Positions 1-11,615 of a stretch of 64,000 nucleotides of DNA are shown piece after piece (within the stretch, counting starts at the first letter, position 1; each line of letters starts with the position of its first letter). A program made the position numbers and the translations under genes. The stretch comes from Psittacicella melopsittaci. Its GTDB lineage: Bacteria; Pseudomonadota; Gammaproteobacteria; Enterobacterales; Psittacicellaceae. Location of the stretch: assembly GCF_003585925.1 (NCBI RefSeq), contig NZ_NRJH01000012.1, positions 1-64,000 of the forward strand. The letters run 5' to 3'. The notes under the pieces are model-generated. The model did no database searches. It saw nothing but the letters and a program-made list of their open reading frames with translations, and was not told the DNA's origin.

Positions 1-3000
1 ACTACATCTGACAATGTAACTATTGACTCAGCTAACCGTTCAGTTTCTGTTATCGGTTCTAACATAACAGCAGAAAATTGTACAGTTAACATCACAGCTA
101 AAGAAAATACTACTAACGAAAATAGTAATATCTCTGGTAACACTGGCTTAATTATCAATGCTACTAATGGTACAGCGACAGTTAATGCTACTAACCTAAC
201 AGCAACTGGCGAAAATACTTCAATTAGCATTACAGGTAACCAAGGTGTTAATATCGGTAATGGTACTAATGTAACTGCTCCACAAAATGTTACTATTGAC
301 TCAGCTAATGGCTCAGTAAATGTTACAGGTTCTAACGTAACGGCTAACAATGGTACAGTTAACATCACTGCGAAAGAGAATACAACTATCGAGAATAGTA
401 ATATCTCTGGTAAACAAGGTGTTAATGTAGATGCAGAAAACGGCACTACAACTATTAACGCAACTAACGTTACAAGTGAAAACGGTTCTGTAAATGTAAC
501 TGGTAACCAAGGTGTTTACATTGGTAATGGTACTAATGTAACAGCTGCAGACAACGTAACTGTAACAACTCCAAATGGTTCTGTTTCTGTAATCGGTTCT
601 AACGTAACAGCGAACAATGGTACAGTTAACATCACTGCTAAAGAGAATACAACTATCGAAAATAGTAATATCTCTGGTAAACAAGGTGTTAACGTAGATG
701 CAGAAAACGGCACTACAACTATTAACGCAACTAACGTTACAAGTGAAAACGGTTCTGTAAATGTAACTGGTAACCAAGGTGTTTACATTGGTAATGGTAC
801 TAATGTAACAGCTGCAGACAACGTAACTGTAACAACTCCAAATGGTTCTGTTTCTGTAATCGGTTCTAACGTAACAGCGAACAATGGTACAGTTAACATC
901 ACGGCTAAAGAGAATACAACTATCGAGAATAGTAATATCTCTGGTAACCAAGGTGTTAATATCGACGCTGAAAACGGCACTACAACTATTAACGCAACTA
1001 ACGTTACTTCTAACAACGGTTCAGTGAACATTACTGGTAACCAAGCGGTGAACATTGGTAACGGTACTAACGTTACAGCTGCTGATAATGTAACTATTGA
1101 TTCATCTAATGGTTCAGTAAATGTTACAGGTTCTAACGTAACAGCTAACAATGGTACAGTTAACATCACTGCTAAAGAAAATGTTACTATTGAAAACAGC
1201 AACATTTCTGGTAACCAAGGTGTTAACGTAGACGCTGAAAACGGCACTACAACTATTAACGCAACTAACGTTACAAGTGAAAACGGTTCTGTAAATGTAA
1301 CTGGTAACCAAGGTGTTTACATTGGTAATGGTACTAATGTAACAGCGGGTAACAACGTAACAGTTGATTCACCAAATGGTTCTGTTTCTGTAATCGGTTC
1401 TAACGTAACAGCGAACAATGGTACAGTTAACATCACGGCTAAAGAAAATACAACTATCGAGAATAGTAATATCTCTGGTAACCAAGGTGTTAATATCGAC
1501 GCTGAAAACGGCACTACAACTATTAACGCAACTAACGTTACTTCTAACAACGGTTCAGTGAACATTACAGGTAACCAAGCGGTGAACATTGGTAACGGTA
1601 CTAACGTTACAGCTGGTAACAATGTAACTATTGATTCATCTAATGGCTCAGTTAATGTTACAGGTTCTAACGTAACAGCTAACAATGGTACAGTTAACAT
1701 CACAGCTAAAGAAAATGTTACTATCGAAAATAGTAATATCTCTGGTAACCAAGGTGTTAACGTAGACGCTGAAAACGGCACTACAACTATTAACGCTACT
1801 AATGTTACTTCTGAAAATGGTTCAGTGAACATTACTGGTAACCAAGGCGTGAACATTGGTAACGGTACTAACGTAACAGCTGCTGACAATGTAACTATTG
1901 ATTCATCTAATGGTTCAGTAAATGTTACAGGTTCTAACGTAACTGCAAATAACGGTACAGTTAACATCACGGCGAAGGAAAATGTTACTATTGAAAACAG
2001 CAACATTTCTGGTAACCAAGGTGTTAATATCGACGCTGAAAACGGCACTACAACAATTAATGCAACTAATGTAACTGCTGAAAACGGTTCAGTGAACATT
2101 ACTGGTAACCAAGGCGTAAATATCGGTAACGGTACTAACGTTACAGCAGGTAACAATGTAACTATTGATTCATCTAATGGCTCAGTAAATGTTACAGGTT
2201 CTAACGTAACAGCGAACAATGGTACAGTTAACATCACGGCTAAAGAAAACGTTACTATCGTAAACAGTAATATTTCTGGTAACCAAGGTGTTAATATCGA
2301 CGCTGAAAACGGCACTACAACTATTAACGCAACTAATGTAACTGCTGAAAACGGTTCAGTGAACATTACTGGTAACCAAGGCGTGAATATCGGTAACGGT
2401 ACTAACGTTACAGCTGGTAACAATGTAACTATTGATTCATCTAATGGTTCAGTAAATGTTACAGGTTCGAATGTAACAGCTAACAATGGTACAGTTAACA
2501 TCACTGCTAAAGAAAACATTACTATCGAAAACAGTAATATTACTGGTAACCAAGGTGTAGACATTAATGCAACTAATGGTACAACTACTATTAATGCAAC
2601 AAATATCTCTGCTCCTAACGGTTCAGTGAACATTACTGGTAACCAAGCGGTGAACATTGGTAATGGTACTAACATTAGTAGTCAAGGTGATGTGAACATT
2701 AACTCAACTAATGGTTCTGTAAATGTAACAGGTACAAATGTAACAACTAATGGCAATGTTAATATCACTGCTAAAGAGAATATTACGATTAATAACTCTA
2801 ACTTCAGTGGTAAAGACTTCTACTCGAATGCTACAAACGGTAGTTCAACAATTACCAACAGTACCTTCAACTTTACGAACATAACTGTTGATGCTAATGG
2901 TTCTAATACCTTTGATAACAACAATGTTAATATCACCAACAACACTCACCTCAGTGGTGATCCTGTAAGCTTTACTAATAACTCAGGTGTTATCGATAAG

Positions 3001-3450
3001 AACCCAGTTATTAACAATGTGACTTGTGGTACGGATACTACTAAACAAAACAACCCGAATCTAACCATAACTAATCCGGTTGTTGATCCTAGCATAGATC
3101 CGAACTACGATGATTGGTTATTAGAAGATGAAAGTGATGAAGTTAAACGTTCAGCTGGCTACATCACCGATAACGATGTACCTCTACCAGCAGGTGAAGG
3201 GGTAACCGTAACTAAAGATGGCTTCCAAATCTCAACATGTTACGTAGTTATTGATGACATCTTAGAACGTTACAACGTAACGCTCGAAGACGCTCAAAAC
3301 CTAACTACGCAAGAGATTATTGAGAAATACAACATCTCTGGAGACGATCGTCGTCGCTTCGAACAATCATGTCAACTTGTTCCTGGCTACCTCAGAACTA
3401 AGACTATCTTAGCTCCTGGATATAATCCTTCAGGTAGTAGTAACGAGTAA
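1..3450 (+). CDS. Giant repeat adhesin, C-terminal part (5' end outside window)
   Basis: The frame is open from base 1 to the TAA at 3448-3450 (1149 codons); the N-terminus and any secretion signal lie upstream of the window. The visible protein is almost entirely Asn/Thr/Val/Gly-rich beta-helix-like repeats of 89 residues, nearly every position following an N-x-T/S pattern. From about base 2820 the repeats end in a different domain with NNSN and THLSGDP stretches, then an acidic segment (DDWLLEDESDE) and a tail with Cys in CGTDTT, STCYVV and QSCQLVP. This resembles secreted adhesins of the two-partner or autotransporter classes, but no C-terminal beta-barrel is present, so a TpsA/HMW-type exoprotein is favoured. 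No partner transporter is visible. Inference: surface attachment. A strong hairpin terminator follows. Family identity of the missing N-terminus is unknown. Confidence 0.85.
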   Translation, partial: TTSDNVTIDSANRSVSVIGSNITAENCTVNITAKENTTNENSNISGNTGLIINATNGTATVNATNLTATGENTSISITGNQGVNIGNGTNVTAPQNVTIDSANGSVNVTGSNVTANNGTVNITAKENTTIENSNISGKQGVNVDAENGTTTINATNVTSENGSVNVTGNQGVYIGNGTNVTAADNVTVTTPNGSVSVIGSNVTANNGTVNITAKENTTIENSNISGKQGVNVDAENGTTTINATNVTSENGSVNVTGNQGVYIGNGTNVTAADNVTVTTPNGSVSVIGSNVTANNGTVNITAKENTTIENSNISGNQGVNIDAENGTTTINATNVTSNNGSVNITGNQAVNIGNGTNVTAADNVTIDSSNGSVNVTGSNVTANNGTVNITAKENVTIENSNISGNQGVNVDAENGTTTINATNVTSENGSVNVTGNQGVYIGNGTNVTAGNNVTVDSPNGSVSVIGSNVTANNGTVNITAKENTTIENSNISGNQGVNIDAENGTTTINATNVTSNNGSVNITGNQAVNIGNGTNVTAGNNVTIDSSNGSVNVTGSNVTANNGTVNITAKENVTIENSNISGNQGVNVDAENGTTTINATNVTSENGSVNITGNQGVNIGNGTNVTAADNVTIDSSNGSVNVTGSNVTANNGTVNITAKENVTIENSNISGNQGVNIDAENGTTTINATNVTAENGSVNITGNQGVNIGNGTNVTAGNNVTIDSSNGSVNVTGSNVTANNGTVNITAKENVTIVNSNISGNQGVNIDAENGTTTINATNVTAENGSVNITGNQGVNIGNGTNVTAGNNVTIDSSNGSVNVTGSNVTANNGTVNITAKENITIENSNITGNQGVDINATNGTTTINATNISAPNGSVNITGNQAVNIGNGTNISSQGDVNINSTNGSVNVTGTNVTTNGNVNITAKENITINNSNFSGKDFYSNATNGSSTITNSTFNFTNITVDANGSNTFDNNNVNITNNTHLSGDPVSFTNNSGVIDKNPVINNVTCGTDTTKQNNPNLTITNPVVDPSIDPNYDDWLLEDESDEVKRSAGYITDNDVPLPAGEGVTVTKDGFQISTCYVVIDDILERYNVTLEDAQNLTTQEIIEKYNISGDDRRRFEQSCQLVPGYLRTKTILAPGYNPSGSSNE
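235..2790 (+). repeat. Nine-plus exact-length 267-bp tandem repeats inside the adhesin gene
   Basis: The marker GGTAACCAAG starts at 235, 502, 769, 1036, 1303, 1570, 1837, 2104, 2371 and 2638, a constant spacing of 267 bp (89 codons). Copies are near-identical, with a few swapped variants (NQGVYIG, NQAVNIG, NQGVNIG). The last copy decays after about 2790 and the region before 235 is a more degenerate copy. Length is conserved to the base, so copy number changes keep the frame. Confidence 0.95.
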
Positions 3451-3660: not shown

Positions 3661-3690
3661 AAAGAGAGGCATAAAGCTCTCTCTTTTTAT
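3661..3690 (-). terminator. Terminator of trmD
   Basis: AAAGAGAG / CTCTCTTT hairpin with T-rich flanks on both strands; it touches the trmD stop codon at 3687-3689 and can work in both directions. Confidence 0.75.
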
Positions 3691-4496
3691 TCTCTACTTG
3701 TTTTCTTTTTGCGTGGTTTTTTAGCAAAAGGATCTGGTAAGCCTCGAATTTTAGCAAGTAAACTAATTTGCGTTTTAGTTAATGCTTGCTCTTGCTCTAA
3801 CTTAGCAATTAGCTCTGGACGACGTTCTAAAGTTCGGCGCAACGATTGCTCTTGACGCCAGAGTTCAATATTACCATGATGTCCTGAAAGTAGTACTTCA
3901 GGCACTCCTTGCCCATGATAGACTTCGGGACGCGTATAATGCGGGCAATCAAGTAAACCATTAGCAAAACTATCTTGCTCGGCAGATTCTTTGGTATTAA
4001 GAGCTTGCGGGATATGACGGATAATGGCATCTATCATAGTCATAGCTCCGAGTTCGCCTCCTGTGAGGACAAAGTCCCCTAAAGACCATTCTTGATCTAC
4101 ATAACGATCAATAAATCTTTGGTCTATGCCCTCATAACGTCCACAAATAAAAATGTAGTTGCAGTTAGATTGGGCAAGCTCAACACTAGCTTGGTGATTA
4201 AACACCTTTCCTTGCGGGGATAATAAAATTGTTTGCACTGCCTCACCTTTACTAGCAGCTTGGGCTTTAGCAGCTTCTAGAGCTCGTTCTAAAGGCTCAA
4301 TTTTCATCAGCATGCCAGGACCGCCCCCAAAAGGACGATCATCAACCGTTTTATGCTTGTCGGTAGTAAAATCACGGAGATTAAATACCTCTAATTCGTA
4401 GAGTCCTGCTTTTAAGGCTTGTTTGGTGATGCCCCAATCACTAATTGCTTTAAACATTTCAGGGAAAATCGTAATTACCCCGAACCATTTACTCAT
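3687..4496 (-). CDS. trmD: tRNA (guanine-N1-)-methyltransferase TrmD
   Basis: TrmD methylates G37 at N1 in tRNAs that read C- and G-starting codons, using S-adenosylmethionine, and so prevents frameshifting. Visible family motifs are the N-terminal [17 protein letters not shown] (residues 55-62), LLSPQG (91-96), CGRYEGID (118-125) and [11 protein letters not shown] (138-148), which form the knotted SAM site and the catalytic Asp region. Length 269 is close to the usual 240-260; the extra residues are a basic C-terminal tail rich in Lys/Arg. The start has an AGGAG ribosome site nine bases upstream. In most proteobacteria trmD lies in rpsP-rimM-trmD-rplS; here it stands alone behind thrC, which is unusual. 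Confidence 0.97.
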
Positions 4497-4556: not shown

Positions 4557-5861
4557 TTATTTATGGGCTTTAGCTGCCGCTGTATGGCTTAAAAGAAACT
4601 CTTTTAAAGTTGCATAGTCAGCATCAAAGTTTTCTGATAATAAAGGACGATCTTTATATTTTGCTAATTGCTCAGGTAAAGCAATTTCGCGTCCTAAAAT
4701 ATTTTCTACTTCGCCTTTAAATTTAGCTGGATGAGCTGTACCTAGGAAAATACCTACTTGCTCGTCTTTTAAGTAGTCTTTAAGCACGCGATAAGCTACA
4801 GCTCCATGAGGTTCAGAAACATAACCTAAACCATCTAAAGCAACAATAGTTTGGGCAGTTTGAGCATCAGAAACTGGAGCCGAGAATAAATCTTGCTCAA
4901 ATTTCCAGTTTTTCACGCGGAACAGCTCTTCAATACGTGGCCAGTTGTTTGGACGAGAAACATCCATAGCATTAGACAAAGTAGCTTGAGTTTGATGAGG
5001 TTCCCATTTGCCTGAAGCTAGGTAACGTGGCACTGTATCATTGGCATTAGTTGCAGCTATGTACTTAGCTACAGGTAAGCCAAGAGCCTTAGCTAGTAAA
5101 CCTGCAGTTAGGTTACCAAAGTTGCCCGAAGGAACACTAATTACAACTTCTTTGTTTTGAGGCACACGAGCATAAGCTTCAAAGTAGTAAGTAATTTGGG
5201 CTAATAAACGGCTAATGTTAATTGAGTTAGCTGAGTTTAAGCCAATTACTTCACGTAAGTGCTCATCATCAAAAGCTTGTTTTACTAATGCCTGACATGC
5301 ATCAAAGTCACCGTTAATCGCAATAGTTTTAATATTGTCGCCGAGAGTACAGAAAAGTTTTTCTTGTAACTCAGAAATACGACCTTTTGGATAAAGTACT
5401 ATTACTTCAATATTTGGGACTTGGTAAAAGGCATGAGCTACAGCCGCCCCTGTATCTCCCGAAGTTGCTGTAAGAATAGTAATTTTACGTTCTTGCGCGA
5501 GCAGACGTAAAACTTGCGACATAAAGCGTCCACCAAAGTCTTTAAAAGCTAAAGTTGGACCATGGAAAAGTTCTAAAGTATAAACACCAGGCTCTACCTC
5601 AACTACAGGTACAGGGAAGTTAAAGGCATTATTTACTAACTCTTGTACTTGCTCTGGACTAAATTCATCACCAATAAAAGCACCAAGAACTTTAGCAGCT
5701 CGCTCTTGGAAAGGTAAAGCTAAAAGCTCTTGAATTTGCTCAGGGCTAAAGCTAGGAATTTCACTCGGGAAAAATAAACCTTGATCCTTACCTAAACCTT
5801 GCAATACTGCTTGTTTAAATGATACTTTTTCCTCGGGGTGTTTAATATTATACAATTGCAT
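4557..5861 (-). CDS. thrC: Threonine synthase
   Basis: ThrC is the PLP enzyme that converts O-phosphohomoserine and water to threonine and phosphate, the last step of the pathway. The PLP lysine is in LAFKDFGGRF (K107), followed by the phosphate-binding-like TATSGDTGAA (131-140). The N-terminal NIKHPEEKVSF and the HPAKF stretch near the C-terminus (GTAHPAKFKGEV) are typical of the longer proteobacterial class. Length 434 matches the family (about 430). It is the third gene of thrABC; its ATG overlaps the thrB stop in TAATG, implying translational coupling. Regulated with the operon by the leader attenuator. Confidence 0.97.
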   Translation of the reverse strand: MQLYNIKHPEEKVSFKQAVLQGLGKDQGLFFPSEIPSFSPEQIQELLALPFQERAAKVLGAFIGDEFSPEQVQELVNNAFNFPVPVVEVEPGVYTLELFHGPTLAFKDFGGRFMSQVLRLLAQERKITILTATSGDTGAAVAHAFYQVPNIEVIVLYPKGRISELQEKLFCTLGDNIKTIAINGDFDACQALVKQAFDDEHLREVIGLNSANSINISRLLAQITYYFEAYARVPQNKEVVISVPSGNFGNLTAGLLAKALGLPVAKYIAATNANDTVPRYLASGKWEPHQTQATLSNAMDVSRPNNWPRIEELFRVKNWKFEQDLFSAPVSDAQTAQTIVALDGLGYVSEPHGAVAYRVLKDYLKDEQVGIFLGTAHPAKFKGEVENILGREIALPEQLAKYKDRPLLSENFDADYATLKEFLLSHTAAAKAHK

Positions 5862-6922
5862 TAAATTTCCTCTTGGCGTAAAAACTGAGCAAACTCTTGC
5901 TCACTTAAAACTACGGCTCCATCAAAGTCCGTTTGGCAAATATAAACAAAACCTTCTTCGTTTTGTAGGTAGTGTTGAGCAAAAACCTCTTGCAGTTTTT
6001 GGGCAGTAGCAAGGTTATTTGCTAGAGCATAAAAAGTTGGACCCGAACCCGAAATCCCACAAGCTAAAGCTCCTGCTTGGTAAAGTAAAGTGCGAATCTT
6101 ATCAGCATTAGGTAAAAGTTGCTCACGATAAGGTTCGGCAACTAGATCACGTAAACTTCGTGCTGCTAGCTCTTGATCCCCAAGATATAAAGCATGAACA
6201 AAGCTTGCCATATAAGCAGTTTGGGCAATAATTTGGCTTCGACTATAGCTATCTGGGAGAATGCGACGAGCATCCTCGGTTTTTATAACTATCCCAGGAT
6301 AAGCTAAAACCCAGTACCATTGCTCAAAAATTGGTAACTCTTGGGTTAGAGCTCCCTCTTTAACTGGGCGCTCAGGTGCTCCTGGATAAGGAGCATAAGC
6401 TGGAGGCAACATAAGTTGTAACCCACCTAGGTAAGCAGGGGCAACATTGTCATAATGTGCCGAACCCGAAACTGTACCTTCGAGCTCGCCCATAAGAGCT
6501 AGCATGGTGGTTTTTTCTAGTAGTTGCCCATGAAACTCATTAAGGGCTACCAAAGCTGCTACTGCCGAAGAAGATGACGAACCTAAGCCCGAGCCTACTG
6601 GCATGTTTTTATAGAGAGTTAAAGCTAAAGGCTTAACCTCATGGTCGCGAGCTTGAAGCTCACGTCGATAGAGAACATAGGCCTTGTAAACAAGGTTAGT
6701 TTCTAGTTTATCAGCTAGTTTACCAATAAACTTACCCTTGCCCGCAAAGGCTAGAGCAGGCTCGCCTGGGCGAGCTAGATTAGTATCTTGCTCGCTAAAA
6801 TCAGCAGCTACTACTATATCGCCCAGTCTTTTACCGTCAAGGCGTCTTACTGCCAAGCCCAGTAAATCAAAACCTACACTAAGATTGGCTGAAGTTGCGG
6901 GTGCATATACAGCTACTTGCAT
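5861..6922 (-). CDS. thrB: Homoserine kinase
   Basis: ThrB is a GHMP-family kinase that phosphorylates homoserine with ATP. The GHMP nucleotide loop PVGSGLGSSSSSA is at residues 108-120, the N-terminal motif is APATSANLSVGFDLLGLA, and the C-terminal glycine motif is CGISGSGPTFYAL. Length 353 is somewhat above the usual 310, with the extra residues in loops and at the C-terminus. Start ATG overlaps the thrA stop (TAATG), and its own stop overlaps thrC in the same way, so the three genes are tightly coupled. Confidence 0.97.
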   Translation of the reverse strand: MQVAVYAPATSANLSVGFDLLGLAVRRLDGKRLGDIVVAADFSEQDTNLARPGEPALAFAGKGKFIGKLADKLETNLVYKAYVLYRRELQARDHEVKPLALTLYKNMPVGSGLGSSSSSAVAALVALNEFHGQLLEKTTMLALMGELEGTVSGSAHYDNVAPAYLGGLQLMLPPAYAPYPGAPERPVKEGALTQELPIFEQWYWVLAYPGIVIKTEDARRILPDSYSRSQIIAQTAYMASFVHALYLGDQELAARSLRDLVAEPYREQLLPNADKIRTLLYQAGALACGISGSGPTFYALANNLATAQKLQEVFAQHYLQNEEGFVYICQTDFDGAVVLSEQEFAQFLRQEEI

Positions 6923-9387
6923 TAACGTATGCCTCCATAACTTTGCAGCGTACGAAGAATATCAGAGAAAATACCAGCTGCTGTAACATCATTACCTGCC
7001 CCGTAACCACGGAGTAATAATGGAATTGGGTTATAGTAGCGCGTATAGAAGGCAAGAGCATTTTCACCACCTTTAACCTTGTAAAGTGGATCATCAGCCC
7101 CTACTTCCATAATTTTTACTGAGCATTTACCGTGATCAATTTGCCCTACATAACGCATTACCTTACCTTCGGCTTTACATTTTTCTACGCGTGCTGAGAA
7201 CTCAGCATCTAGTTCAGGCAGTTTTGCCATAAACTCTTCGGTAGAAAGACCTTGAGCAAAGCCAACTGGTAATACAGGTTCTACTACTATATCGCTTAAT
7301 TCAAGTTCAAGACCTGATTCACGAGCGAGAATCAGAAGCTTACGAGCTACGTCTTGCCCTGAAAGGTCATCACGTGGATCTGGTTCGGTAAAGCCTAATT
7401 CACGTGCTTTAGCAGTTACTTGTGATAAAGGCGTACCATTTTCGAGTTCACCAAAAATGTACGAAAGCGAACCTGAAAGAATACCATTAAAGGTTTCAAT
7501 TTCGTCACCTGCGGCAATGAGATTTTGCAGGTTTTCAATTACAGGAAGACCTGCACCTACGTTAGTTTCATACATGAGGCGACGTTGTTCTCTTTGTGCC
7601 ACTTCACGCATTTTTTGATAATAAGCGTAAGAAGAAGTATTAGCTTTTTTGTTTGGCGTTACGATATTAAAGCCTGCTTCTAGCAGACGCACATAGCTAT
7701 CAGCAATGTTTTGGTTTGAAGTACAATCCACAAATACTGGATTAACTACATGGTCAATTTCTACGCGGCGAATAAAGTCAGAGAGCGTATACTCTAAACC
7801 TTCTTCTTCGAGGCGTTGACGCCAGTTTTCATCGAGTTCTAAACCTTTAGGGTCAAGAAGCCATTTACGACTATTAGCAATACCACAAATTGCAATTTCT
7901 ACGTTTTTACTTGCTAAGTATTCTTTCTGACGTAAAATTTGTGATAAGAGTTCGCTTCCAACTCCACCCACGCCAACAATATAAGTACGAATAATCTTCT
8001 TTGAGTTAAAGAGCATGCGGTGCGTTGCTCGTACCGATTCAATTACTTGGTTACCACGAATTACCGTAGAAATAGCACGCTCTGAAGAACCTTGGGCAAT
8101 AGCAATAATACTTACATTAGTTAAAGCTAAAGCCGAGAAGAATTTAGCAGCTGTTCCTTTGAGGTTTTTCATGTTATCCCCAATTACAGAAACTATTGCT
8201 AAATCGTGCTGTACTTCGATTGGATCTAAAGCTCCCTGAGCAATTTCGCTAGCAAACTCTTGTTCTAGAGCTGCTAAACACTTGCTTGCGTCACTTTCGG
8301 TACAACAGAAACCAATTGAGTATTCAGATGAACTTTGGGTAATGAGAATTAAAGATACGCCTGCACGCGATACTGTATCAAAAATACGAGCTGCTATCCC
8401 CACTTGCCCAATCATTGCTGGACCTGCCACGTTGAACATAGCCACATTGTTTAGAGAAGTAATACCCTTAATGTGTTGTTGGCTAGGTTTTAATTGGCTC
8501 GAGTCAACAATAATTGTTCCTGCATCTTGCGGTTTATTAACGTTTTTAATAACGCAAGGAATTCTAAATTGAGCAATTGGACTAATTGTTTTTGGATGAA
8601 GAACTTTAGCCCCAAAGTAGCTTAACTCCATTGCCTCTTGGTAAGAGAGCTCTGGGAGTAATAAAGCATCTTCAACTATATTTGGATCACAAGTGTATAC
8701 ACCATCTACATCTGTCCAGATTTCACAAGCACTAGCATTAGTACAAGCTGCTAATAAAGCTGCCGAGTAATCTGAACCATTGCGTCCTAAGAGCATTACT
8801 TGCCCTTGAGCATTACCCGCAGTAAACCCTGGCATTAAGTAAATTGTTTTACGGTTAAATTCTAAAGTTTTAAATTTAGCTTGGGAAGCTAAAACATCAA
8901 TTGAAGCTTCAAAGAAGTTGTCATCATTAGCAACCAGATAGTCCCAAGGTAAAATAATGTCATTAGCTTGACCAAGTTGATCAAGGTATTGTTGCATTAA
9001 AAATACCGAACAACGTTCACCTGCACTTACAACATAAGCAAATTCAGCATCGCTAATTTGTTTATTTAGCGTAAGAGATTTTAAGCTATATTCAACTTCG
9101 TTAAGAATTGCGCCTAAGCCCACTAACCATTTATCAGCTTGCTCTGGTTCGGCAAGACCATGAGCAATACTATAAACTATATCTTCTACTGCTCCTAAAG
9201 AAGAACGATAAGTACCATTAGCTTGAGCTTGACCTATAGCTGCATGCAAAAGGTTAGTTACTTTTGCAGGAGCTGATAAAACTACAGCTACGCCTTCACT
9301 TTCGTAAGCTGCACGAATGATTTTTGCGACATTTTGAAATGCTGCGGCATTAGCTACCGATGTACCGCCAAATTTTAAAACTTTCAT
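6922..9387 (-). CDS. thrA: Bifunctional aspartokinase I / homoserine dehydrogenase I
   Basis: ThrA carries out the first and third steps of threonine synthesis: phosphorylation of aspartate and NAD(P)H reduction of aspartate semialdehyde to homoserine. The kinase signature [10 protein letters not shown] is at residues 4-13, two ACT regulatory domains lie roughly at 310-460, and the Rossmann motif [10 protein letters not shown] of the dehydrogenase is near residue 467, with NVGAGLPVI and [15 protein letters not shown] after it. Length 821 equals the E. coli enzyme (820). A ribosome site (TAGGT) lies about eight bases before the ATG. The intermediate enzyme Asd is encoded at 49985-51115 in this window. 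Feedback inhibition by threonine is expected from the family. Confidence 0.98.
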
Positions 9388-9452: not shown

Positions 9453-9531
9453 AAAAAAGCGAGCCTTGGTGGCTCGCTTTTTTTCCTCACTAGAGAAAGT
9501 TTTACACACACTTAATGTAGCTAGCCACCAA
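9453..9531 (-). terminator. thr operon attenuator: terminator and competing antiterminator
   Basis: Read on the minus strand, GCGAGCC / GGCTCGC (9477-9459) followed by TTTTTT forms a terminator about 65 bases before thrA. A 9-base segment upstream, TTGGTGGCT (9531-9523), is the exact complement of AGCCACCAA (9474-9466), which includes the 5' arm of that terminator, so pairing with it would abolish the terminator. Confidence 0.85.
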
Positions 9532-9606
9532 TTACTAAGTTTGACTAACTACTTACAGGAAGATAGATATTTTACGATTAAGTCTAATCAAAATTAAAAT
9601 TATTAT

Positions 9607-9639
9607 CCACCTGAAAATAACTAGTCTACTTCAAGGTGG
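9607..9639 (-). promoter_or_regulatory. Leader hairpin overlapping the Thr codons
   Basis: On the minus strand CCACCT at the end of the ACC codons pairs with AGGTGG (stem CCACCT-TGAA / TTC-AGGTGG with one bulged base). A ribosome stalled on the Thr codons would cover the 5' arm. This is the sensor part of the inferred attenuator. Confidence 0.7.
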
Positions 9640-9661
9640 TGGTTGTTAAATTTAAAAACAT
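9626..9661 (-). CDS. thrL: thr operon leader peptide
   Basis: A 12-codon reading frame, ATG to TAG, encodes MFLNLTTTTLK, with four consecutive Thr codons (ACA ACC ACC ACC). It lies about 23 bases after a predicted transcription start, has a weak AGAGA ribosome site, and is followed by an alternative hairpin pair ending in a terminator before thrA. Position, Thr run and downstream RNA structure match the known enterobacterial thrL attenuation system, although the E. coli peptide is longer and also rich in Ile. The sequence itself is short, so the call rests on the context. Confidence 0.85.
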   Translation of the reverse strand: MFLNLTTTTLK

Positions 9662-9690
9662 AAAAAAATCTCTAGCTTGGGGAAATAATT

Positions 9691-9719
9691 ACTATATATT
9701 TATGTTAACACAGAACCAA
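9691..9719 (-). promoter_or_regulatory. Predicted thr operon promoter
   Basis: Minus-strand TTGGTT (9719-9714), a 17-base spacer, then TATAGT (9696-9691). The predicted start near 9684 lies just upstream of the leader peptide. Confidence 0.65.
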
Positions 9720-10307
9720 GCTAAGAAAAGTACTTTTATTAACTTTTCTAACTAAAACTTTGATAAATAAAGTAAAAAAGTCTGCTTTTAGGGTTGTCTT
9801 GAGGGGGTTGAGGTAGAGCTAACGGATAGTTTTATGCTTGTTTGAGGTTGGTTTTTATAGTTTACTTGAGGTTGGTTTTTTCTCACTTGCCTCTGCTGAG
9901 TTTTTAATCGTTTGCTTGAGGTTAGATTTTTTATCTCTTTTCTCTGCTGAGTTTTTTATCGCTTGCTTGAACTTAGTTTTTTATCGTTTGCCTGAGCTTA
10001 GGTTAGAGGCAAGGGGGTAGCAAGGCTTGATCTTTTGTTTGGCTTTTGTTTTCCGTTTGGGGTGTGATTTTAGCAGGGCTTGGTCGTTAATTAGGCTTTT
10101 TTAGGTCTTACTTTGATTTACTCTCTAGCTTTGCTTTTAGGTCTGCCTTTATCCTGCGGTAAAAATTTTTATCTTTTTGTGAAAAGTTTTTATTTTTCCC
10201 GTATTTTCTAGCCGTGCTACTAAAGATTGGCATTTTTTTTGCCATTTTCCTTGCGGTAGTATAATATAATAAAAAAGACTTTTTTAGCTATCAAGCCAAA
10301 CATTAAT
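9720..10307. other. Gap between divergent thr and corC-lnt operons; T/G-rich imperfect repeats
   Basis: From about 9835 to 10010 the plus strand is T/G-rich and built of loosely repeated units such as TGCTTGAGGTTGGTTTTT and CTCTGCTGAGTTTTTTATCG. A 60-codon hydrophobic frame here arises from the repeats and is not credible. The rest is AT-rich spacer leading to the corC promoter. Confidence 0.6.
10238..10270 (+). promoter_or_regulatory. Predicted corC-lnt promoter
   Basis: TTTGCC at 10238-10243, a 16-base spacer, and TATAAT at 10260-10265, with a second overlapping TATAAT at 10265-10270. About 40 bases precede the corC ATG. Confidence 0.6.
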
Positions 10308-11615
10308 ATGTCATTTCTAGAACAGATAAAAACAATAACAAATAATCTTATTAATAAAAGCCGCCAAAAACTAATTGCGGTTCTAACAAATAAACCAGGT
10401 TCGGTAGAATCTGCAGAAGACCTTGAACAACAAATTGAATACCTCAACAACAATAAAGCAATAGATATTCACATTGCTAAAATGTTAAAAGGGGTATTAA
10501 GCATTCGTAATTTACGTGCTCGTGATCTCATGATCCCACGTGCTCATATTGATTACTTTGAGTCTGACCAAACTCTCGAAGATGTATTAAATGCCGTATT
10601 AGAAAACGGGCATAGTCGTTATCCAATTCTCGATGACAACAACGACGATCAAGAAGCAATTAGCTTACTTTTTACGAAAGATTTACTTCGTGTTCTTATT
10701 GACCAAAAAGTAGATCAAGTAAGCCTCACGGAAATTGCCAAACCAATTAAAATTATCCCTGAAACCAAACATGTAACTACTTTATTACAAGAGTTCCAAA
10801 GTTCACGTACTCATCTAGCTCTAGTAGTTAATGAGTTTGGGGAGATTTCAGGATTAATTACTATTGAAGATATTCTTGAAGAAATTGTTGGTGATATTTC
10901 AGATGAGTTTGATAAAGAAGATCTCTTTATCCAGCAAGTAAGTAAAACATCTTTTGATGTTTTAGCTAAAACCCCAATTTATCTCTTTAACGAAGCTTTT
11001 GGTTGTGAACTTTCAGATCAAGAGTTTGATACTATTGGGGGCTATGTTTTTGGTTTACTCGGACACATGCCTATACGTAATGAGTCTATAGACTTAATTC
11101 CAGGCAAACTAATTGCTCGTATTACCCAAGTTAATGAACGTCAAATTCTCAAACTAAGAGTAAGAGCCATTCAAGACTATAGTGTAAAACTGAAAAAAGA
11201 AATTGCTGAGGTAACTAATACCGAACAGGCTGCTCAGGTAGTAGCTGAAGCTAATGCTCAAGCAGAGCAAGCTAAGGCTCAAACAGAGCAAGCTAATGCT
11301 CAAGTTGAACAAGCAAATGCTCAAGCAGAACAAGCTAACGCTCAAGCTGAGCAAGCAAAGGCTCAAGGAGAGCAAGCTAACGCTCAAGCTGAACAAGCTA
11401 ACGCTCAAGCTGAACAAGCTAACGCTCAAGCTGAACAAGCTAATGCTCAAGCTGAACAAGCTAATGCTCAAGCAGAGCAAGCAAGTGCTCAAACAGAGCA
11501 AGAAAACGCTCAGGCAGAGCAAGCAAAGGCTCAAGCAGAGCAAGTAAATGCAACGGCAACGGTAAACCCAGAGCAAGCACCTCTTACTAATGATAAAGCA
11601 GAACAGGAGAAATAG
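10308..11615 (+). CDS. corC: CorC/HlyC-family CBS-domain protein with heptad-repeat tail
   Basis: CorC (YbeX) proteins are cytoplasmic CBS-pair proteins linked to cobalt/magnesium efflux or envelope stress. The sequence shows the N-terminal LRARDLMIPRAHIDYF (about 69-84), a CBS pair (about 75-200; EFGEISGLITIEDILEEIVG is the end of CBS2) and the transporter-associated CorC_HlyC domain (about 212-290; FDTIGGYVFGLLGHMP). E. coli YbeX has 292 residues; this protein has 435 because residues 316-413 are 14 copies of a 7-residue Ala/Gln/Glu unit (NAQAEQA), likely an extended coil. It sits five bases before lnt, the conserved corC-lnt order. The tail is the odd part and has no known role. The start is set by the ATG after the promoter; no clear ribosome site is seen. 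Confidence 0.92.
   Translation: MSFLEQIKTITNNLINKSRQKLIAVLTNKPGSVESAEDLEQQIEYLNNNKAIDIHIAKMLKGVLSIRNLRARDLMIPRAHIDYFESDQTLEDVLNAVLENGHSRYPILDDNNDDQEAISLLFTKDLLRVLIDQKVDQVSLTEIAKPIKIIPETKHVTTLLQEFQSSRTHLALVVNEFGEISGLITIEDILEEIVGDISDEFDKEDLFIQQVSKTSFDVLAKTPIYLFNEAFGCELSDQEFDTIGGYVFGLLGHMPIRNESIDLIPGKLIARITQVNERQILKLRVRAIQDYSVKLKKEIAEVTNTEQAAQVVAEANAQAEQAKAQTEQANAQVEQANAQAEQANAQAEQAKAQGEQANAQAEQANAQAEQANAQAEQANAQAEQANAQAEQASAQTEQENAQAEQAKAQAEQVNATATVNPEQAPLTNDKAEQEK
11254..11547 (+). repeat. 14 x 21-bp tandem repeat encoding the CorC tail
   Basis: Units of GCTCAAGCTGAACAAGCTAA type, 21 bp each, exactly 14 copies, with five consecutive near-identical ones in the middle. Each unit encodes NAQAEQA with small variations (K, S, T, V, G). 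The repeats also keep other frames open, which explains spurious frames on both strands. Confidence 0.95.

Follow-up and report, generated by a model that had tools for sequence, protein, structure and literature searches.

A putative threonine attenuator of Psittacicella with a six-segment leader RNA laid out like that of the his operon

Introduction

How could a leader peptide of only eleven residues govern a terminator that begins about 145 nt beyond its stop codon? The thr locus of the bird-associated Psittacicella melopsittaci (family Psittacicellaceae, Pasteurellales) poses this question, since such an arrangement lies upstream of thrA in the window, by which we mean the whole 64,000-nt stretch of DNA analysed. 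Two attenuators of E. coli serve as points of reference: thrL, which responds to threonine and isoleucine (PMC9291695), and the his attenuator, which comprises stem-loops AB, CD and EF with an alternative DE (PMC10989985). A first-pass annotation of the window had proposed threonine-dependent attenuation of thrABC in a variant design in which stalled ribosomes free a 9-base segment that blocks the terminator. The comparisons and folding models presented here leave attenuation as the best reading, supported by the Thr codons and the 9-base complement in all four Psittacicella genomes, and point to a more elaborate route from the ribosome to the terminator.

Results and Discussion

Organization of the thr locus

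The locus lies on the minus strand of contig C4 of the P. melopsittaci genome (G000) in the order leader ORF, terminator, thrA, thrB and thrC (Table 1), with the end of the terminator at 9453, 65 nt upstream of the thrA start at 9387. It was compared with three congeners (G001, G002 and G003), two of which are named P. hinzii B96_3 and 111, and the ThrA of the window is 83-89% identical to theirs. Downstream, trmD (3687-4496, minus strand) follows 60 bases past thrC in the same direction and is possibly co-transcribed. The interval between terminator and thrA holds an extra 200 to 700 nt with no recognised genes in G001 (L045) and G003 (L044), a stretch missing from the window and from G002.

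Table 1. Features of the thr locus in the window, in the order in which the minus strand is read
Feature	Positions	Strand	Sequence, pairing or evidence
Candidate extended -10 element, TGTTAACAT	9702..9710	-	consensus match; form TGnTAAnAT
Leader ORF, MFLNLTTTTLK + stop TAG	9626..9661	-	sequence; 3 congeners with short Thr-run leaders
Segment A, Thr codons and following bases	9629..9645	-	CAACCACCACCTTGAAG; pairs with B; alternative partner D
Segment B	9604..9626	-	GACTAGTTATTTTCAGGTGGATA; begins on last stop-codon base; partner A or C
Segment C	9543..9569	-	TATCTATCTTCCTGTAAGTAGTTAGTC, 3' end GTAGTTAGTC; B:C and C:D in 4/4 species
Segment D, putative antiterminator strand	9517..9531	-	TTGGTGGCTAGCTAC; C:D 10 bp in 4 species; D:E
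Segment E, terminator 5' arm and loop	9466..9477	-	GCGAGCCACCAA; partner D or F
Segment F, terminator 3' side	9453..9465	-	GGCTCGC + T run; E:F -21.0 kcal/mol, 0/300 shuffles as stable
thrA, bifunctional aspartokinase/homoserine dehydrogenase I	6922..9387	-	NF006959, 1128 bits vs cut-off 726 (NCBIfam)
thrB, homoserine kinase	5861..6922	-	TIGR00191, 279.5 bits (NCBIfam)
thrC, threonine synthase	4557..5861	-	TIGR00260, 348.2 bits (NCBIfam)

Leader peptide and terminator

The leader opens with ATG at 9661, reads threonine through ACA ACC ACC ACC and closes with TAG at 9628-9626, which confirms the annotated 11-residue peptide with four Thr codons in a row. The congeners carry Thr-run leaders at the same place, MLVQLTTTTSK in G002, MVLSSTTTTGK in G001 and MYFLVTTTTTYCD in G003, the last about 980 nt upstream of thrA. 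Thus 4/4 genomes have a leader of 11 or 13 residues that contains an unbroken run of four or five Thr codons and no Ile codon, and the short ORF rich in codons for the pathway product that marks leader-peptide attenuators is present in four species. Across the whole 64 kb, one other small ORF has a run of four Thr codons, MTTTTIKK... at 10633 on the plus strand, inside corC.

The intrinsic terminator that had been placed upstream of thrA is confirmed as well, and it is a strong one. It spans 9484-9453 on the minus strand (AAAAAAAGCGAGCC-ACCAA-GGCTCGCTTTTTT), and an E:F helix followed by a T run lies between the leader and the first gene in all four species. Its start is 145 nt past the stop codon in the window, 154 or 152 nt past it in the pair G001 and G002, and about 225 nt past it in G003 by segment positions. 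The 9-base segment TTGGTGGCT (9531-9523), which forms the 5' part of segment D, is exactly complementary to AGCCACCAA (9474-9466) on the 5' side of the terminator in the window; in the congeners the match is 8/9 or wobbled, and partial in G001. When the pairs are listed, TGGCT:AGCCA is intact in the window, G002 and G001, the outer D:E pairs are lost or wobbled in G002 and G001, and G003 has one internal mismatch (8/9). The first-pass annotation had named the loss of either the Thr codons or the complement in relatives as the outcome that would speak against it, and neither is lost in any of the four genomes.

Pairing among the six segments

Between the Thr codons and the T run we distinguish six segments, A to F, with five helices among neighbours. 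Their duplex energies in the window are -12.1 kcal/mol for A:B, -20.1 for B:C, -12.0 for C:D, -19.7 for D:E and -21.0 for E:F, and by the same measure all five are available in 4/4 species. The first of them accommodates the annotated hairpin with the ACC codons as its 5' arm, which can pair with CAGGTGG of segment B. The leader as a whole (245 nt) folds with z = -7.0, and 0/200 shuffles are as stable. Taken singly, B:C, D:E and E:F each beat 300/300 shuffles in the window; over the four species C:D and E:F stand above nearly all shuffles in each, and the shuffles as stable number at most 1/300 for B:C, 0-13/300 for D:E and 1-23/300 for A:B.

Because MAFFT on the whole leader misplaces segment B of G003, duplex energies were used to assess B:C, and column counts were confined to the 3' half. 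There, C:D, to which C contributes its last 10 bases (9552-9543), has 10 pairs that are 100% paired in 4/4 species. G003 differs at four of these pairs and keeps all of them, three through one-sided changes and one through a two-sided change. In the shuffle control for pairs with two-sided changes 35/500 shuffles did as well, which is only mildly significant, as four sequences would lead one to expect, and sliding the partner by 1-3 columns lowers pairing from 96% to 51% or less. The covariation rests mainly on G003, since there are four genomes and three of them are close to each other. The conserved parts of the leader are the Thr run, GACTAG adjoining the stop codon, GTTAGTC, GTGGCTA and the terminator, and the rest mostly aligns poorly. 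In 4/4 species the stop codon touches or sits within the GACTAG of B; G003 is in another frame relative to this motif, and its retention despite the frame shift suggests selection on the RNA and not on the end of the peptide.

Effect of ribosome position on the leader fold

To model the effect of a translating ribosome, the transcript was folded as far as the 3' end of E with a larger or smaller footprint fixed on one of the Thr codons in turn or on the stop codon; the folds describe equilibrium on truncated transcripts and are not kinetic. In the window, a ribosome on Thr codons 6-8 is predicted to leave B:C and D:E formed, with 7.5-10.5 expected pairs in D:E and at most 1.4 in C:D. G002 gives the same outcome at codons 6-7, and at codon 8 with the smaller footprint. 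D:E is weaker in G001 (3.4-8.3 expected pairs at codons 6-7), and in G003 its maximum of 6.2-7.1 falls on codon 8 or codon 9 according to the size of the footprint, the value at codon 8 being 7.1. For a ribosome on Thr codon 7 the expected D:E pairs are 10.3 in the window, 8.2 in G002 and 3.4 in G001. With the last Thr codon as the stall site and the larger footprint, no switch is predicted.

At the stop codon the picture reverses. D:E falls to 0.0 expected pairs in 4/4 species, and C:D rises to 9.6-9.9 in the window (9.9), G002 and G001; in G003, D is mostly held by A and C:D has just 0.3 pairs. Prevention of D:E by a ribosome that has reached the stop codon is thus a clear prediction for three species and a weaker one for G003. 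When the stretch from leader to E was shuffled as a control, the observed switch was matched by 0/200, 1/200, 20/200 and 3/200 shuffles across the four species, the 20/200 belonging to G001, where the switch is weak. An antiterminator that excludes the terminator and is set by ribosome position is therefore found in silico, weakly in G001. With no ribosome on the RNA, D is bound by A in the window, G001 and G003 and by C in G002. Once the transcript is complete, the terminator comes out as most stable whatever the ribosome state, so the decision between termination and readthrough must be kinetic and depend on timing, as it does in all attenuators of the ribosome-mediated leader-peptide class.

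Taken together with the conserved pairing, these models indicate that the leader is very probably a ribosome-mediated attenuator of thrABC that responds to charged tRNA-Thr by way of an RNA relay of six segments, in which A:B, C:D and E:F would lead to termination and B:C and D:E to readthrough. When threonine is short, a ribosome waiting on the Thr codons would cover A, leaving B to pair with C; D, released from C, could then pair with E, and D:E would pre-empt the terminator so that transcription runs into thrA. When threonine is plentiful the ribosome would reach the stop codon and, since this touches the first bases of B, a ribosome finishing translation there should disrupt the base of B:C; C would take D, E:F would form and transcription would end. 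After release of the ribosome A:B could hold B. A leader that is not translated should also terminate, because D would be sequestered by the Thr codons (A) or by C. The earlier proposal that a stalled ribosome frees the 9-base segment thus stands as far as the release of D for E goes; the manner of release, which that proposal left unexplained, would involve the extra segment C and hence six segments rather than four.

An improbable alternative would dispense with C as a partner of D. In such a four-segment switch A would pair directly with D across a B:C spacer hairpin, so that a ribosome stalled on A frees D for E and A:D otherwise withholds it. The ribosome-free fold of the window does hold B:C and A:D together (A:D 5.9 expected pairs, with 5.0 in G001 and 4.9 in G003), and A:D beats most shuffles (6-23/300 as stable). 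However, a ribosome that has reached the stop codon leaves most of A covered, and if C:D did not form, this would cost the terminator precisely under plentiful threonine; in the model it is C:D that takes over at the stop codon in 3/4 species. Moreover, the full pairing of C:D in 4/4 species through four pair changes would go unexplained if C merely closed a spacer.

Very improbable, too, is a reading without regulation, in which the terminator serves to end a transcript from upstream or from the antisense direction, while the short ORF arose by chance or encodes an unrelated small protein. Bidirectional terminators are common between genes, and corC is divergent upstream. However, the Thr runs and the pairing and order of the segments are kept in four species in which the flanking intergenic sequence aligns poorly, and the minus strand between the leader and corC has no ORF of at least 60 aa, and therefore no nearby upstream gene whose transcript needs ending. 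Least probable of all is control of the terminator by a protein or ligand on the B:C hairpin with the Thr codons secondary, for although this hairpin is unusually long for a thr leader and no Rfam family exceeds its gathering threshold at the locus, the Thr runs adjoining B are conserved in 4/4 species and the ribosome-position model yields a switch by itself.

Comparison with known attenuators

The proposed six-segment relay, textbook in its principle of attenuation, has a hairpin layout nearer to that of the his operon than to those of other threonine operons. With the thr attenuator of E. coli and its relatives (thrL, RF00506) it shares the operon, a leader with Thr codons and a terminator before thrA. 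Psittacicella was compared with 21 relatives from its order in which a thr leader could be recognised, and a simple search found the terminator in 14 of them. Their leaders have 20-27 residues and 1-6 Ile codons, and the terminator lies 16-30 nt past the stop (14/21); those of Psittacicella have 11-13 residues and no Ile codon, with the terminator about 145-226 nt past the stop. The description of the locus as a variant with a short peptide and a distant terminator is borne out by these figures.

The likeness to the his attenuator (hisL) lies in six segments, A-F, whose alternatives follow an identical order, A:B, C:D and E:F against B:C and D:E, available in four species. It extends to a leader that is short (E. 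coli hisL has 16 residues) and contains the sensed codon in a run, and to a long spacer between leader and terminator. It is a resemblance of layout. In place of His codons and a downstream his operon, Psittacicella has a leader that reads Thr codons and precedes thrABC; it would therefore work like a his-type attenuator without being a his attenuator. One operon thus appears with different RNA attenuation layouts in neighbouring families.

Such variants are missed by the Rfam Thr_leader model. RF00506 does not match the locus, its gathering cut-off of 55 bits is not exceeded in any of the family's genomes, and across the genus the model matches random terminators and never the thr leader locus. 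Other Rfam families give weak sub-threshold matches at the locus that are unrelated and driven by the terminator or an AT-rich hairpin. A covariance model of the 3' half, run on 296 genomes of the order, scores 72-104 bits for the four Psittacicella thr leaders only, and no second copy was found within the genus. The remaining matches (at most 42 bits) were taken as terminator noise; five were checked for leader-like ORFs and none was convincing. Attenuators of the six-segment thr kind may accordingly be under-annotated.

Threonine codons and isoleucine synthesis

In E. coli, isoleucine is made from threonine. Searches of the four Psittacicella genomes did not find IlvA, IlvC (ketol-acid reductoisomerase) or the large subunit of acetolactate synthase; for IlvA, the biosynthetic threonine deaminase, the sole matches were weak ones to other PLP enzymes, at about 51 bits against a cut-off of 411. 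Four related genomes in the same search carry all three. The Psittacicella genomes are 86-92% complete, so joint absence from all four through missing sequence is unlikely. A sensor of threonine alone would fit this result, as a hypothesis and not as proof. A leader free of Ile codons is not strictly linked to loss of the isoleucine pathway, because ilvD scores above its curated cut-off in 2/4 genomes (G000:C61:22770-24542 and G003:C150:26934-28715) and because G041, of the same order, has ilvC although its Thr leader (MNTQRTLTTTTSTTAGRQERGVRA) likewise contains no Ile codon. With neither IlvC nor acetolactate synthase found alongside it, ilvD could be a relic or a dehydratase that serves some other function. 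We offer only tentatively, and consider somewhat doubtful, the scenario in which the lineage swapped the compact attenuator of its order, sensing threonine and isoleucine, for a Thr-only six-segment relay alongside its loss of isoleucine synthesis, the Thr codons doubling as an anti-D strand so that an untranslated leader terminates. The locus nonetheless offers a case for testing whether leader codons track the fate of a pathway.

Promoter and flanking sequences

The attenuation model places the start of transcription upstream of the leader, which would then be translated and be subject to threonine-dependent termination. The promoter originally proposed, TTGGTT-17-TATAGT, is weak: its first hexamer agrees with 3/6 consensus positions, and it is absent from the promoter scan list. 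The extended -10 element in Table 1 is the more likely candidate, and its TGnTAAnAT form is present 5' of the leader in 4/4 Psittacicella genomes at a distance of 49-98 nt from the ATG.

Farther upstream, the intergenic region 5' of this candidate promoter contains an imperfect tandem repeat of about 25 bases in nearly 7 copies (9830-10001), which does not appear in those upstream stretches of the congeners that were inspected. The divergent corC-like gene (10308-11615, plus strand) has a coding tandem repeat in its C-terminal part (11248-11551), with a 21-base unit in 14.5 copies of the AEQANAQ type; the C-terminal part of the G003 homologue is also low-complexity, but of another sequence. 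Elsewhere in the window, an ORF of 808 aa (1024-3450, plus strand) with Asn/Thr-rich repeats (NGSVNVTGSNVTANNGTVNITAKENVTI...) probably encodes a surface or adhesin-like repeat protein.
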